Of a stretch of 64,000 bases of DNA, positions 36,930 through 44,502 are shown piece by piece. The notes beneath the pieces were generated by a model. It did not search any database and was not told the origin of the DNA. It saw only the letters and a list, made by a program, of their open reading frames with translations. The stretch is from an uncultured Alphaproteobacteria bacterium (GTDB lineage Bacteria; Pseudomonadota; Alphaproteobacteria; UBA2966): NCBI GenBank assembly GCA_958295725.1, contig OY282368.1, positions 1,448,001 through 1,512,000 on the forward strand, in the 5' to 3' direction. Numbering within the stretch: the first letter of the stretch is position 1; each line of letters starts with the position of its first letter. Both the position numbers and the translations under genes were made by a program.

Positions 36930-38690
36930 CTAGCGCATCTCCTCCACGGGTTCCACGCCCATCACCTCGAGCCCGCTGGCGATTACCGTCGCCACGCCCT
37001 TCACCAGCGCCGCCCGCGCGAGGGTGAGTTCCCGGTCTTCATCGACGATGAAGCGCAGGTCCGGCTCCTCCTTGCCCCGGTTCCAGAAGCGATGGAACGC
37101 CGACGCGAGATCGTGAACGAAGAACGCGACGCGATGAGGTTCATGGGCCTCCGCCGCAGTCTCGACCAGGCGGGGCCAGCCGCCGAGCGCCTTGATCAAA
37201 GCAAGCTCGTCGCCGTGGGTCAAGCGATCGAGATTGGCGCGCCGCAAGGCCCCGCCGTCGACCTCGCCCCCCAGGCTCCCGGCCGCGTTGCGCAGGACCG
37301 AGCAGGCCCGGGCGTGGGCGTATTGCACGTAGAACACCGGGTTGTCGCGGGACTGTTCGGTCACGGCCTCGAAGTCGAAATCGAGCGGCGCGTCGTTCCT
37401 GCGCGTCAGCATGATGAAGCGCGCCACGTCCTTTCCCACCTCGTCGACGACGTCGCCGACGGTCACGAAACTTCCGGCCCGCTTCGACATGTGGACCGGC
37501 TCACCGCCGCGGCTGAGCTTCACCAGCTGATACAGCTTGACGTCCAGTTCGGCCCCGTTTCCCGACAGGGCCGCCACGGCCGCCTTCATGCGCTTCACGT
37601 GGCCCGCGTGGTCCGCCCCCCAGACGTCGATCATGGCGTCGAAACCACGCGCCATCTTGTCGCGGTGATAGGCGACGTCGCCCGCGAAGTAGGTCCAGCC
37701 GCCGTCCGATTTCCTGAGAGGCCGGTCGACGTCGTCGCCGAACGCCGTGGACCTGAACAGCGTCTGCTCGCGCGGCTCCCAGTCCTCCGGCCGCTTTCCC
37801 CTCGGCGCGTCGAGGACCCCTTCGTAGATCAGGCCGCGATCGGCCAGCAGGCGCTCCGCCTCGTCCGCCCCGCCCGCTTCCACGAGCTTCCGTTCCGACG
37901 AGAACACGTCGATTTCCGCGCCGACGGCGTCGAGGTCGGCCCGGATCAGCTCCATCATCGCGTCCGTGGCGGTCTCGCGGACGACCGGCAGCCAGCTGTC
38001 CTCGTCCTCGTTCAGCCAGCGGTCTCCGTGCTCGGCCGCCAGCCGTTCGCCCACGGGAACCAGGTAGTCGCCCGGATAGAGCCCCTCGGGTATCTCCCCG
38101 ACGTCCTCACCGAGCGCCTCCCGGTAGCGGAGGTACGCCGACCGGGCCAGGACGTCGACCTGGGTTCCGGCGTCGTTGACGTAGTACTCGCGGGTCACGT
38201 CGAACCCCGTCTTCCGCAGGAGGCGGGCGAGCGCGTCCCCGAACACCGCGCCGCGCGCGTTGCCGACGTGCAACGGCCCCGTCGGGTTCGCCGACACGTA
38301 CTCCACGTTGACCGCCCGGCCCTGTCCGAGATCGGAATCGCCGTAAGCCGTCCCCGATTCCAGCACGTCGCGGAGGCGGCCGCGCAGGAAGGCGGCGCTC
38401 AACCGCATGTTGATGAACCCGGGGCCGGCGACGTCGACCTCGGCGATGGGAGCCGGAACGTGGAGCCTCTTCAGAAAAAGGGCGATCTCCTCCGCGATCT
38501 CGCGGGGCTTCCTGCCCACCTTCCCCGCCAGCACGAGGGCGGCGTTGGTGGCCACGTCGCCATGGGACGGATCCCGCGGCGGCTCCACGTTTATCGACTC
38601 GAGATCGAGTCCGTCCGGCACGGCGCCGGACGAGACCAGCTCCTCGACCGAGTCGAGAATTATCTCCCTCAACTGTTTGAAATAATTCAT
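36930..38690 (-). CDS. argS: arginyl-tRNA synthetase
   Basis: Class I synthetase of 586 residues. The HIGH motif is HVGN (141-144) in [16 protein letters not shown]; the KMSKS-like motif is HMSKRAG. The N-terminal Add1 domain and C-terminal DALR anticodon domain ([18 protein letters not shown]) are present. Its stop abuts the SPOR start, and its own start follows the dgt stop by one base. Confidence 0.96.
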
Positions 38691-38691
38691 T

Positions 38692-39900
38692 TCACTCGGA
38701 CAAGGACAGGCGACGATACTCCGAAAGCGCGTAACGGTCCGTCATGCCGGCGATGAAATCGCAGACGAGACGGGGAAGCTCGCCGGGTCCGGACCTGCGC
38801 GCGCTTTCCCGCCAGTCCCCCGGCAACGACTCCGGTTCCTCGAGGTAATGGCGGAATATCCCGGCGACCACCCGCCGCCCGCGGTCCGACGTCTCGCCGA
38901 CCTTGGGGTGCCGGTACATGTTGGCGAACAGGAACGCCTTCAGGTCGCGGTCTCTCCGGGCGACGTCGGCGCTCATCCCGATCATCGCCCGGTCGCTCTG
39001 CCGGACCGCGTCGGCGCTCCGCGGCACGGCCTGGGCGAGGCGGGACCGCGATTCCGCGACCACGTCCCCGATCATCAGCGATATCAGGCGCCGGATGGTC
39101 TCGTGGACGGCGCGCGACCGCTCGAGCCCCGGGTACAGGTCCCGGACCTCGGCGAGCACCGGCCCGACGAGGGGAACGTTCCGCAGATCGGCGAAATCGA
39201 ACAGGTTCGCGCGGAGGCCGTCGTCCACGTCGTGGTTGTTGTAGGCGATGTCGTCGGCGATCGCGGCGACCTGGGCCTCGGCGCCGGCGAACGTGGAGAG
39301 TTCGAGGTCGTGCGCCGCGACGTATTCCGCCAGCGTCTCGTGGAGCGGACCGCCGCCGGACCCGGTCGCGCGCGGGCCGATCAACGGGCCGTTGTGCTTG
39401 ACCACGCCTTCCAGGGTCTCCCACGTCAGGTTGAGACCGTCGAACGCGGCGTAGCGCCGCTCCAGCCCGGTCACGACCCGCAGCGTCTGGACGTTGTGGT
39501 CGAAACCGCCGTAGGGGACCATGACCCTGTCGAGCGCCTCCTCCCCCGCGTGTCCGAAGGGTGGGTGACCGAGATCGTGCGCCAGCGCCAGCGTTTCCGC
39601 GAGGTCCTCGTTCAAGCCCAGCGTGCGGGCGATGGTTCGCGCGATCTGCGCGACCTCCAGCGAATGTGTCAGGCGCGTGCGGTAGTGATCGCCCTCGTGA
39701 TAGACGAACACCTGGGTCTTGTGCTTGAGCCTTCGGAACGCCGTCGAATGGAGGATGCGGTCGCGGTCGCGCTGAAACGGCGTCCGGGTCGGGCTCTCCG
39801 GTTCGGCGTGAAGACGCCCCCGGCTCGCCGCCGGGTCGCAAGCGTAGACCGCCGCCGACGGCGCACCGATACGCGAAACGCCCGACGCGGCAAAGTTCAT
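38692..39900 (-). CDS. dgt: deoxyguanosinetriphosphate triphosphohydrolase-like protein
   Basis: HD-domain dNTP hydrolase of 402 residues. [40 protein letters not shown] (metal His), [16 protein letters not shown] (HD) and [16 protein letters not shown] are family motifs. ATG at 39900 is chosen. In related genomes dgt and erpA start beside each other in opposite directions; here 3.4 kb of accessory DNA separates them. Confidence 0.94.
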
Positions 39901-39911
39901 GGCTCGGGACA

Positions 39912-40322
39912 CTACTCCGGCCCCCGGCCGTCCGCAATGCCGCGCGCAGCGCCGGATTCCGGCGGCCGGTAGTTGTCGCGGTAGCGCGCCGGGCGGTGGG
40001 CCTTGAGCAGGAACATGGCGAGGGCGTCGGAGTAGTGGCGCGTCGCGCCCACCCGTTCTCCCTTGTAGTAGACCAGCCTCCCCACCCCCTCGAAGGCGCG
40101 GCGGTGGAATCCGGCTTCCAGGAGGTCGATGCCGTCGTCGAGGATGTCGTCCCACTCGCGGGCGAAGTCGGGGTCCGTATCGCGCCAATGGTATGCGGTG
40201 CGTCTGGGGATGCCGGCGTCGTGGCAGGCGCGGGCGACATTGACGGTATCGGCGAGGGCGTGGAGGAAGGCGGTTTTGCGGCCTGGGCGTTTGTCGACGG
40301 CGGCGGCGGTGTTTCCGTGCAT
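39912..40322 (-). CDS. terminase-small-subunit-like DNA-binding protein
   Basis: Protein of 136 residues. A helix-turn-helix-like part (TVNVARACHDAGIPRRTAYHW) is followed by DPDFAREWDDILDDGIDLLE and the typical RAFEGVGRLVYYKGERVG and YSDALAMFLLKAHRPARYRD. This layout is seen in phage and prophage terminase small subunits and their orphan relatives. No large terminase or other phage gene is nearby, so it is an orphan. ATG 40322 has AGGAG 9 bases upstream. It sits between dgt and the 116-bp array and probably arrived with the island. Its start region is preceded by an imperfect palindrome. Confidence 0.75.
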   Translation of the reverse strand: MHGNTAAAVDKRPGRKTAFLHALADTVNVARACHDAGIPRRTAYHWRDTDPDFAREWDDILDDGIDLLEAGFHRRAFEGVGRLVYYKGERVGATRHYSDALAMFLLKAHRPARYRDNYRPPESGAARGIADGRGPE

Positions 40323-40332
40323 GTCGGGGTCT

Positions 40333-40366
40333 CCTGTTTCCCGTGTTGGAACAATGTGGGAACAGG
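40333..40366. promoter_or_regulatory. imperfect palindrome upstream of the terminase-like gene
   Basis: CCTGTTTCCC (40333-40342) and GGGAACAGG (40358-40366) form an inverted repeat, with a second TGGAACA half-site between. It lies 11 bases upstream of the start at 40322, a good position for an operator. Confidence 0.4.
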
Positions 40367-40440
40367 GGTGTGTCGTGTCAAGAGGAGAATTCCATAACAG
40401 AGAAAAAATATCCACCGTGCGGTCAAGGGCAGGAAAGCGG

Positions 40441-41575
40441 TTCGCACAATCCGCACACCGTCGGGGTACGCACTCTCGGGACGCGATTCCCCTTTCCGGC
40501 CTCCCCTCTCGACAGGGAGGAAGGAACGCGAAGGCCCGGCGCGACACCGGATCGGAATTGCACAATCCGCACACCGTCGGGGTACGCACTCTCGGGACGC
40601 GATTCCCCTCCCGGCCTCCCCTCTCGACAGGGAGGAAGGAACGCGAACGGCCCGGCGCGACACCGGATCGGAATTGCACAATCCGCACACCGTCGGACGC
40701 GCACTCTCGGGACGCGATCCCCCCTCCCGGCCTCCCCTCTCGACAGGGAGGAAGGAACGCGAACGGCCCGGCGCGACGCCGGATCGGGATTGCACAATCC
40801 GCACACCGTCGGGGTACACACTCTCGGGACGCGATCACCCCCTCCCGGCCTCCCCTCTCGACAGGGAGGAAGGAACGCGAAGGCCCGGCGCGACGCCGGA
40901 TCGGAATTGCACAATCCGCACACCGTCGGGCCGCGCACTCTCGGGACGCGATTCCCCTCCCGGCCTCCCCTTTCGACAGGGAGGAAGGAACGCGAACGGC
41001 CCGGCGCGACGCCGGATCGGAATTGCACAATCCGCACACCGTCGGGCCGCGTATTCTCGGGACGCGATTCCCCTCCCGGCCTCCCCTCTCGACAGAGAGG
41101 AAGGAACGCGAACGGCCCGGCGCGACGCCGGATCGGGATTGCACAATCCGCACACCGTCGGACGCGCACTCTCGGGATGCGATCCCCCCTCCCGGCCTCC
41201 CCTCTCGACAGGGAGGAAGGAACGCGAACGGCCCGGCGCGACACCGGATCGGGATTGCACAATCCGCACACCGTCGGGCCGCGCACTCTCGGGACGCGAT
41301 CTCCCCGCCCGGCCTCCCCTCTCGACAGGGAGGAAGGAACGCGAACGGCCCGGCGCGGCGGCGGATCGGAATTGCACAATCCGCACACCGTCGGACGCGC
41401 ACTCTCGGGACGCGATTCCCCTCCCGGCCTCCCCTCTCGACAGGGAGGAAGGAACGCGAACGGCCCGGCGCGACACCGGATCGGAATTGCACAATCCGCA
41501 CACCGTCGGGGCACACACTCTCGGGACGCGGCCCCCCTCCCGGCCTCCCCCCCTGTCAAGGGAGGGGGGGCGAAG
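40441..41575. repeat. array of ten 116-bp tandem repeats
   Basis: The 20-base motif starting CACAATCCGCACACC occurs at 40445, 40561, 40677, 40793, 40910, 41026, 41142, 41258, 41375 and 41490, with a period of 116 (115-117). Each unit continues with a short variable stretch, CTCTCGGGACGCGAT, then a hairpin CCTCCCCTCTCGACAGGGAGG (written as CCTCCC, loop, GGGAGG), GAAGGAACGCGAA and GGCCCGGCGCGAC. The last unit ends in a diverged, longer C/G hairpin (41545-41575). There is no gene: the period is not a multiple of three, so long open frames across it are shadows. Confidence 0.95.
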
Positions 41576-41645
41576 GCAAATGGCCAGGAGGAGGAATGCG
41601 GATGGCCCTTGCGAGGGGGCATGGACGGAGCCGACGGCCTTCGGT

Positions 41646-41820
41646 GAATTGGCCGATCGCTCCAGGTCCCTTACATGGGTCGAACGGACGACGCGAAAAC
41701 GGTCCCCGGCAACCCGGCGGCGAACGACGGGCGATCGCGAACCGACCCTCATGACAGTTGCGCGCGGACGCGGCCCGGCGTATCCTTTTCCTCATGGGAC
41801 GGGAGAACCGGCCCGGCGGC
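41646..41820 (+). pseudogene. decayed duplicate of the erpA promoter and 5' end
   Basis: This stretch aligns without large gaps to 43233-43407, the leader and first codons of the true erpA. Shared segments include GATCGCTCCA, CGAACGGACGACGCGAAA and GAGAACCGGCCC. The ATG of erpA (43314) is ACG here, and small indels shift the frame after the second Met. It lies directly upstream of the AT-rich gene and may supply its promoter. Confidence 0.85.
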
Positions 41821-41866
41821 GCGGCGCGGCCCGGGAGGCTCCGCGACATCTCCCGAGGAGGAACCG

Positions 41867-42782
41867 ATGTTCAGGACGTTCATGAAAGCCGTTCTCGTCT
41901 CCGTCCTTCTGGCTTCAAGCTCTCAAGGCTTTGCCTACTCACGGGGGCTTCTCGGTTGCGCTGGTTTTGAGGAAATGGAAAAATTCTATAAAATGGAGCC
42001 GGACAATATCAATGCTCAGGATCAATGCTCAGGCGGGCTATGCCACCTGTCTCTTGGCGAAAGGGGAAAACGACTTCGAGGCCCTGAGGCGCCTGCATTA
42101 TCTAGCAGACCATCATGAAAAGGTTTCCGCCGCTTTTGAAATCGCCAGATATATTGAAACCGGAGGAGAGTTTGAACACGAAATAGATGTAGACAATATA
42201 AACAAGGCCATCGAGGCTTACTATAAAGTCCTGTTTCTGATCAACCTGGACCCCCGCTACCCCAACAATGGCCACTGGGTTTATGAAATCGCAAAACAGA
42301 TGGAGCTACAGTCCAGTTATGCCTTGCCTTTTTTATACAACAACAAATTTATAAATGGCTTTGCTGGCATACATTTTGATCGGCTCTTGCAATCTCCAAG
42401 CTATGAGGGCGACAGAAATAAAAACACCTACCCGGAATACAGCCCCTACACCTTGGACAGCCTGGATAAAATGATCGAGCATGGAAGAGAATGCCAACAT
42501 CTGCCCCTCAAAAATCATTTCGAGATCAATCATTACAAAAGCATTACAGAGGGTTGCCGGCTCTATGCGGATACGGCCGAGGCTCTCAAGCCTTTAGAGC
42601 AAAAAAGACTCGGCATCCTTAACCAGGAATCCTGCCAGGACCTGAACGAAAACAACTGCCCAGAGTATTATCAGATTACAAATGAAATTCTGGATCTTCG
42701 TGACCAAAATGCAATTGATCAAGATGAGGCTTTTCGCTTCTTGTGGGAATACCAAAAGCAACAAGCTCAAAACAACGACTAG
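41867..42782 (+). pseudogene. AT-rich secreted helical-repeat protein, broken by a 13-bp duplication
   Basis: ATG 41867 follows a strong GAGGAGG. The first frame encodes a signal peptide (MKAVLVSVLLASSSQGFAYS) and reads to about 42020. A perfect 13-bp tandem duplication (42008-42020 and 42021-42033) then shifts the frame. Removing one copy joins DNINAQ to AGYATCLLAKGEND and restores a 300-residue protein to 42782. The rest is helical, with TPR/Sel1-like character (FEIARYIETGGEFEHE, NKAIEAYYKVLFLINLDP) and several Cys. The base composition is far more AT-rich than all neighbours, a sign of recent acquisition. No family is recognised. Contingency or simple decay are both possible. Confidence 0.8.
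42008..42033 (+). repeat. 13-bp perfect tandem duplication
   Basis: ATCAATGCTCAGG occurs twice in direct succession at 42008-42020 and 42021-42033. It adds 13 bases and shifts the reading frame of the host gene. Confidence 0.95.
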
Positions 42783-43232: not shown

Positions 43233-43313
43233 GAATTGACCGATCGCTCCAAGTCCCTTACATATATCGAACGGACGACGCGAAAGCGGTCCCCGACAAC
43301 CCGGTGGCGAACG

Positions 43314-43658
43314 ATGAGCGATCGCGAACTGACCCCCATGACGTTGAGCGCAAACGCGGCCCAGCGTATCCGTTTCCTCATGGAACAGGAGAACCGGCCC
43401 GACGCGGCCGTCCGGGTCGCCGTGACGGGCGGCGGTTGCGCCGGCTTCCAGTACGGCTTCGACTTCGACTCGGCGGCGGCCGAGGACGACTTCGTGTTCG
43501 AGCGCGACGGGGCCCGCATCGTCGTGGACCCCCTGTCGTTGAGCTTCCTCCAGGGCTCGGAAGTCGACTACGTCGAAGAGCTGATCGGCGCGTCGTTCCA
43601 GATCGCGATCCCCAGCGCCACCTCCTCTTGCGGTTGCGGAACGTCGTTCGCGATGTGA
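43314..43658 (+). CDS. erpA: iron-sulfur cluster insertion protein ErpA
   Basis: A-type Fe-S carrier of 114 residues. Three conserved Cys are present: one in VTGGGCAGFQYGF and two in SSCGCGTSF. VVDPLSLSFLQGSEVDY is also typical. ATG 43314 (MSDRELTPM) is chosen with a GGTGG upstream; 43338 is an alternative. Normally adjacent to and divergent from dgt. A damaged copy of its 5' end lies 1.6 kb upstream. Confidence 0.94.
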   Translation: MSDRELTPMTLSANAAQRIRFLMEQENRPDAAVRVAVTGGGCAGFQYGFDFDSAAAEDDFVFERDGARIVVDPLSLSFLQGSEVDYVEELIGASFQIAIPSATSSCGCGTSFAM

Positions 43659-43731: not shown

Positions 43732-44502
43732 ATGAGGATCGCGACCTGGAACGTCAACTCGGTGAAGGCGCGACTGCCCCACCTCCGGGGCTATCTGCGC
43801 GAGGAGGCGCCCGACATCGTCCTGTTGCAGGAAACCAAGGTCGTCGACGAGGCGTTCCCCGCCCTGGAGATCGAGGAGCTGGGCTACAACGTCGCCGTCC
43901 ACGGCCAGAAGACCTACAACGGGGTCGCCATCCTCGCCAAACGGCCGATCGAAGACGTGGTCCGGGGCCTCGACGGCGACGCCGCGGACGGGCAGGCGCG
44001 CTACATGGAGGGGACGGTGGGAACGGTGCGCGTGGCCTCGATCTACCTCCCCAACGGGAACCCCGTCGGAACCGACAAGTTCGCCTACAAGCTGTCGTGG
44101 ATGGCCCGCCTCCGGGACCGCGTGAAGGAGCTGCTGGAGGAAGAGGAAACCTGCGTCCTCGGGGGCGACTACAACGCGTGTCCCGCCGACATCGACGTAT
44201 ACGACCCTCCCGCGTTCGCCGACGACGCGCTCTGCCGGCCGGAAACGAGGAACCTGTTCCGGTCCCTGGTCTTCCTGGGCCTGACCGACGCCGTGCGCGC
44301 GTTCCATCCCGAACCGGGGGTCTATTCCTACTGGGACTACCAGCGGGGCGCCTGGCCCAAGGACCACGGACTGCGCATCGACCACCTGTTGCTGACTCCG
44401 CCGGCGGCCGACCGCCTCCGGGCCGCCGACGTCGACCGCCGTCCGCGCGGCAGGGAGAAGGCCTCGGACCACACGCCGGTGTGGTGCGAGATCGAGGAGT
44501 GA
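43732..44502 (+). CDS. xthA: exodeoxyribonuclease III
   Basis: AP endonuclease and 3'-5' exonuclease for base excision repair, 256 residues. MRIATWNVNSVKARLPHL, VLLQETKVVDEAFP, YLPNGNPVGTDKF, CVLGGDYNACPADIDVY and LRIDHLLLTP with ASDHTPVWCEI are the metal and catalytic motifs. Follows erpA by 73 bases, as in many alphaproteobacteria, and precedes the fusion gene by 5 bases. Confidence 0.95.
   Translation: MRIATWNVNSVKARLPHLRGYLREEAPDIVLLQETKVVDEAFPALEIEELGYNVAVHGQKTYNGVAILAKRPIEDVVRGLDGDAADGQARYMEGTVGTVRVASIYLPNGNPVGTDKFAYKLSWMARLRDRVKELLEEEETCVLGGDYNACPADIDVYDPPAFADDALCRPETRNLFRSLVFLGLTDAVRAFHPEPGVYSYWDYQRGAWPKDHGLRIDHLLLTPPAADRLRAADVDRRPRGREKASDHTPVWCEIEE

Follow-up and report, generated by a model that had tools for sequence, protein, structure and literature searches.

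In SaPIs, an SOS-inducible operon containing terS, the gene for a terminase small subunit (TerS), leads to packaging by the phage large subunit from satellite or pseudo-pac sites (PMC12597102, PMC6092414), and at lambda cosB the TerS sites are themselves repeated, as R1-R3 (PMC6092414). For most phages, TerS has bound pac weakly or in a way that is difficult to measure, as a review stresses (PMC9611059), and the binding sites of small terminase subunits are poorly defined. A literature search on solitary terminase small subunits accompanied by arrays returned nothing that matched.

Here we analysed a window, by which we mean the whole 64,000-nucleotide stretch of DNA from an uncultured alphaproteobacterium, in which a tandem array lies beside a gene for a TerS-like protein. 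This array and its relatives elsewhere in the genome look like protein-binding sites belonging to a small mobile element that had not been described before; this element consists of a solitary terS behind an SOS-type box together with tandem candidate recognition sites and is present in many dispersed copies in one species. We give about an even chance to the reading that the array is a pac- or cosB-like binding array for an orphan TerS, in a dispersed element of 1.1-1.5 kb that also has gene-less derivatives. The element contains a TerS family member and is not a PICI, not a REP and not a CRISPR; the known system that comes closest is the SOS-inducible terS module found in SaPI/PICI satellites, and the element is not itself one of these satellites. 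As in SaPI/PICI satellites, which have their own terS in operon I and a pac site, terS lies outside any complete prophage, the promoter is probably SOS-responsive, candidate sites adjoin the gene, and the large subunit would come from elsewhere (PMC6092414, PMC12597102). Unlike those satellites, the element spans no more than 1.1-1.5 kb and shows no sign of an integrase, of genes for replication or interference, or of att sites (the 1.1-1.5 kb shared by the most complete copies hold only terS, with no integrase, replication module or regulator, and no att-like terminal direct repeats fit at these copies), it is present in many copies per chromosome, and its sites form tandem arrays. With lambda cosB and phage pac it shares the presence of several short asymmetric candidate TerS sites near the gene, but it has up to ten cores at 116-bp spacing (29 in another array) and neither an identified cleavage site nor surrounding phage structural genes.

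Structure of the array in the window

TRF reported a repeat at positions 40444-41550 of the window (period 116, 9.5 copies, 93% matches, score 1866), and the features of the array are as follows.

40445-41575, plus strand: tandem array in which nine full units (115-117 bp) and an incomplete tenth all start with the core
40445-40464, plus strand: first copy of the 20-bp core
41490-41509, plus strand: tenth copy of the core; the AT-rich right end that follows the last core at most other loci is missing here

The core, CACAATCCGCACACCGTCGG, is identical in 10/10 copies, which start at 40445, 40561, 40677, 40793, 40910, 41026, 41142, 41258, 41375 and 41490, and 100 shuffles put the chance expectation for ten exact copies of a 20-mer at none. 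The description given in the first-pass annotation, of ten tandem copies of about 116 bp spaced 115-117 bp apart and sharing an invariant 20-bp motif, was thereby confirmed. All variable columns of the units lie outside the core, which at 20 columns is the longest invariant run, and the partial tenth unit passes into a different, G-rich hairpin at ~41550-41575. We also concur that the array has no likeness to a CRISPR or a coding repeat: a CRISPR array was rejected since the nine full units are 89-98% identical in pairwise comparison over their whole length, spacers included, and a coding repeat was rejected since the period is no multiple of three and the reading frames across the array are open on both strands because of the high G+C.

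The CCTCCC...GGGAGG hairpin, which had been described as built into each unit, is present in the full units, but it is mutated in unit 6 and its stability is no greater than in shuffled sequence (fold z-scores of 0.20, -0.51, -0.45 and -0.68). The ability of each 116-bp unit to form this hairpin is what would speak for a repeated small RNA, as had been suggested, or for a structured transcript. Given these z-scores, the mutated unit 6, the lack of any Rfam match for the array and the fact that the core, and not the hairpin, is the most conserved part, we find a small RNA barely credible and have dropped it.

Distribution of the core in the chromosome

A genome-wide search for further copies had been proposed in the first-pass annotation, and it revealed that the array is not unique: the genome from which the window comes (3.67 Mb in three contigs) contains 158 copies of GCACRATCCGCACACC (112 + 46), and the core copies group into about 25 chromosomal loci. 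The core was absent from all 190 other genomes searched, two of them from the same genus and four from the same family; the array matched none of 72,556 plasmids, and no IMG/VR contig contained the core. The core heads four types of array, with periods of about 46, 49, 116 and 125 bp. Units of ~46 bp reach up to 29 cores (from C1:2812489), an array of 49-bp units lies at C1:1827463, arrays of 115-116-bp units occupy six loci, the window included, and arrays of 125-bp units lie at C1:1415127-1416001 and C1:769323-769448. Apart from the core, the array types have largely unrelated units, the 125-bp and 116-bp units sharing about 70-78%, and the constancy of the core amid otherwise unrelated unit sequence argues that it is recognised by something. 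The counter-reading named in the annotation, an ordinary dispersed REP repeat of which the array is only an expansion, holds as far as dispersal at many loci is concerned; the array is nevertheless more than a REP expansion, and REP/BIME was rejected since the core is neither self-complementary nor palindromic and the hairpin in the units lacks strict conservation and is of chance-level stability.

Dispersal at many loci would also be expected of a neutral repeat whose tandem copies multiplied through slippage and unequal crossing-over, which gene conversion dispersed and which now has no function. The degenerate state of the window copy fits such a history, as does the mosaic order in which unit variants recur between copies and loci, which is what conversion would give. 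A neutral repeat does not readily explain why the core is kept across unrelated spacers, why terS is under purifying selection (see below) or why the promoter and its box are the same in all copies, and we rank it as the second rival and consider it quite unlikely.

Several further observations concern the loci themselves. About a fifth of the chromosome, C1 about 2.814-3.524 Mb, has no core copy listed, the about 25 loci lying elsewhere. Contig C2 (L074, L075) is, where compared, a 97-99% copy of a part of the chromosome (L054, L055 on C1) and starts 3 bases ahead of a core sequence; it probably represents a variant strain, with the assembly interrupted at the repeat. L074 additionally contains an insertion of about 2 kb. 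Two paralogous lipoprotein-like genes (L068:6373-9036 and L069:11795-14272; 825-887 aa, MTITRLMTMLACGAMLALGACTDTKRV...) start directly behind a core, and the stretch ahead of them is found again at C1:2609 kb. Their products have no Pfam match, and their C-terminus may resemble TbpB-like surface lipoproteins.

The TerS-like gene and its promoter

At the six 116-bp loci a common stretch, 0.8-1.0 kb long at the five that are more complete, lies upstream of the array and includes a divergent gene that starts ~120 bp from the first core. In the window this stretch contains the following features.

39912-40322, minus strand: terS-like gene, 136 aa, C-terminal acidic region lost (234-287 aa at the five other loci)
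40376-40381, minus strand: probable -35 box (TTGACA) of a promoter facing away from the array, with the same layout in other promoter copies
40353-40358, minus strand: probable -10 box, CACATT, with a 17-bp distance to the -35 box; several other loci have TATATT instead
40349-40363, minus strand: LexA-type (SOS) box, GAACN7GAAC, GAACAATGTGGGAAC on the plus strand, overlapping the -10 box

The genome encodes the TerS-like protein exactly six times, once at each of the six 116-bp loci. In the intact product, an N-terminal domain of about 119 residues precedes a strongly acidic tail that varies in length; at L053, L059, L060, L064 and L070 the tail includes a variable Glu-rich repeat tract, in four copies followed by a basic tail (RRNNRRGRRRRRGG). 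Residues 15-118 of an intact copy match phrog_4044 (terminase small subunit) at E 9.9e-39, and an intact copy matches PF20901 Sf6_terminase with 30.3 bits (E 4.7e-7), over the curated cut-off of 27, whereas the window copy reaches 19 bits, under the cut-off. For the window copy, AlphaFold (pLDDT 81.5) predicts a helix-turn-helix (HTH) together with a long helix and a beta hairpin, and the best 12 Foldseek matches of this model, all with E-values above 0.1, are all phage proteins (SPP1-like TerS, Sf6 TerS, phBC6A51). The neighbour of the array is a member of the phage-type TerS family, and what is unusual is its setting. A search for the Terminase_6N large subunit, the one TerL family covered, found none anywhere in the genome, so packaging would need an outside partner or a TerL of another family; the absence of a nearby Terminase_6N partner is evidence against a functional pair of phage terminase subunits here and leaves the family membership of the protein untouched. 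A pooled pN/pS of 0.14 over the DNA-binding domain indicates purifying selection on the five intact terS copies, and the low value could in part reflect gene conversion between copies.

A GAACN7GAAC-type box lies at the same offset upstream of 6/6 terS genes, where it overlaps a strong predicted promoter, and LexA-type boxes are also found beside several gene-less or relic array loci. The alphaproteobacterial LexA consensus is GTTCN7GTTC / GAACN7GAAC (PMC3091678), and the recA promoter of the same genome has a similar box, GAACAAAATGGGTAC, which overlaps TTGCCA-17-TACATT, the same promoter position as at terS. SOS control of the terS copies is well supported by these motifs. Boxes of the GAACN7GAAC type (exact or with one change) are also present at C1:1679988 (L182) and 2054239 (L190), 25-35 bp upstream of an RNase HII-like gene and of an unidentified gene, which may be SOS genes of the species.

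Anatomy of the dispersed element

At the most complete loci the element consists of the divergent terS-like gene, the SOS-type promoter, the array, an AT-rich segment and an inverted core, with 1 to 4 full core-headed units of 115-116 bp plus a terminal core, for a total of 1.1-1.5 kb. The AT-rich segment, which follows the last core in most arrays, is of similar sequence (consensus around ACCACAATATGTTGTGGT...ATATCAACATATGGTATATCGAGGGC) and carries quasi-palindromes. In the 125-bp arrays (L055, L062, L075) the order is array, AT-rich segment, SOS-type promoter and decayed terS start, the reverse of that at the 116-bp loci. Most array loci, those of the 46-, 49- and 125-bp types, are without an intact terS. 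A common gene driven by the SOS-type promoter of the 46-bp arrays was rejected, since no shared reading frame was found downstream of it.

Direct repeats next to an AT-rich, quasi-palindromic segment and a gene for a DNA-binding protein are reminiscent of an iteron-type replication origin or a centromere-like site, at which the HTH protein would act as initiator or adaptor. The protein, however, belongs to TerS families and has no Rep or ParB family match, the window copy has no AT-rich segment, and many origins on one chromosome would be harmful, which makes an origin or centromere very improbable.

The arrangement of the loci bears more directly on what we regard as the main rival explanation, namely that a transposable element has the core as its recognition end, that arrays are by-products of transposition, that gene-less copies are MITE-like and moved by a transposase in trans, and that TerS is a passenger or an accessory DNA-binding factor. 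The about 25 loci have varied flanks at unrelated intergenic sites, mostly among housekeeping genes (an association with one kind of neighbour gene was rejected on these grounds), the core is absent from the two genomes of the same genus, an inverted core lies at the right end, ~170 bp past the last core, at five loci, copies with promoter and array minus terS are present at seven or more loci, and the HTH has a weak similarity to the transposase profile phrog_157 (E 7.3e-5). All of this would suit a transposon end. However, no inverted core is seen at the left end of the element, no transposase was recognised within the elements, and no clear target-site duplication was found at four complete elements (GGTCCCG is present on both sides at 3/4 loci, yet it is the same at all of them); moreover, a passenger terS would not be expected to be under purifying selection. 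We judge this explanation possible but on the unlikely side. In the same vein, the element resembles MITEs and REP/BIME in being short, dispersed, intergenic and species-specific and in having several gene-less derivatives, and differs from them in that its core is not palindromic, matched terminal inverted repeats at both ends are lacking, no target duplication is seen and the partner gene is terS and not a transposase.

The window copy

The gene order around the element in the window is argS-dgt-[element]-erpA-xthA.

36930-38687: argS, beyond dgt
38692-39897, minus strand: dgt dGTPase (HD and HD_assoc domains), on the left side of the insertion
41643-41830, plus strand: decayed second copy of the promoter and 5' end of erpA, on the right side of the insertion
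43314-43658, plus strand: erpA-like gene (Fe-S_biosyn)
43732-44502: xthA-like gene, after erpA

The erpA promoter and 5' end are thus present twice, as the decayed duplicate and intact at ~43237-43420, and the position of the duplicate just behind the array bounds the insertion by about 39.9 kb and 41.64 kb. Between the two lies a low-G+C, probably frameshifted gene (41867-42782) with a 13-bp tandem duplication at 42008. The terS of the window differs from each intact copy by 12-15 amino-acid-changing differences (dN/dS 0.39-0.63) and has lost its C-terminal part. Since it has drifted, is shortened and falls below the Pfam cut-off, we regard the window copy as a decaying one with the longest 116-bp array.

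Proposed role of the array

The reading of the arrays as TerS binding sites is favoured because all six 116-bp arrays coincide with all six terS copies and because the core is identical across four array periods and invariant in 10/10 copies in the window; it is supported by the TerS family match, the fold, the LexA-type box and purifying selection, and it is weakened because most array loci are without an intact terS, no Terminase_6N was found and IMG/VR contigs contain no core. The suggestion in the first-pass annotation of a protein-binding array or packaging site used with the adjacent terminase-like protein accordingly survives in part: the phrog_4044 match, the 6/6 co-occurrence and core conservation speak for it, while the missing Terminase_6N and the truncated, drifting TerS of the window do not, and packaging with the neighbouring TerS could apparently not be complete in this genome as read.

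We infer binding of TerS to the core, SOS induction and the marking of DNA for packaging, and these would combine as follows. DNA damage would release LexA, and the orphan TerS-like protein would be made and form a ring via its long helix and beta hairpin; its helix-turn-helix would grip the repeated cores, much as lambda gpNu1 does on the R sites of cosB. The places so bound might then be marked for a large subunit from an infecting phage, a gene transfer agent or another strain; alternatively, the TerS-like protein may regulate its own promoter. A bolder version, which we consider unlikely, is that the element is a packaging-site transposon that carries only an SOS-inducible terS and tandem recognition sites and seeds pac-like arrays, such that damage together with a helper phage or gene transfer agent would cause many chromosomal stretches to be packaged and transferred with the element.

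A solitary TerS beside up to ten invariant 20-bp sites would be an unusually favourable system for testing sequence-specific recognition by TerS. Should the element also direct packaging, it would be, to our knowledge, the smallest satellite-like element known, and it would offer a way for a host chromosome to gain many SOS-controlled packaging start sites.

TerS relatives in other genomes

Outside its own genome, relatives of the TerS-like protein are found in phages and prophage-like stretches. No tandem array was found near 82 such relatives, so the array is not a trait of the TerS family, and a GTTCN7GTTC word lies upstream of only 2/82. The copies described here share sequence family and predicted fold with the Sf6-like terminase small subunits of phrog_4044 and PF20901; in contrast to these relatives, which lie in phage or prophage-like contexts with no arrays and almost no LexA boxes, they are solitary and duplicated, and the intact ones have long acidic tails. 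One same-genus genome (G001) has a single orphan TerS relative of 66% identity at a different housekeeping site, beside which no phage genes were recognised. A core-like sequence, GAATTCGCACAATTCGTAC, lies ~220 bp upstream of this gene and is followed by an AT-rich stretch; although the match is weak (35/2000 shuffles were equally good), it hints that the core and terS belong together.
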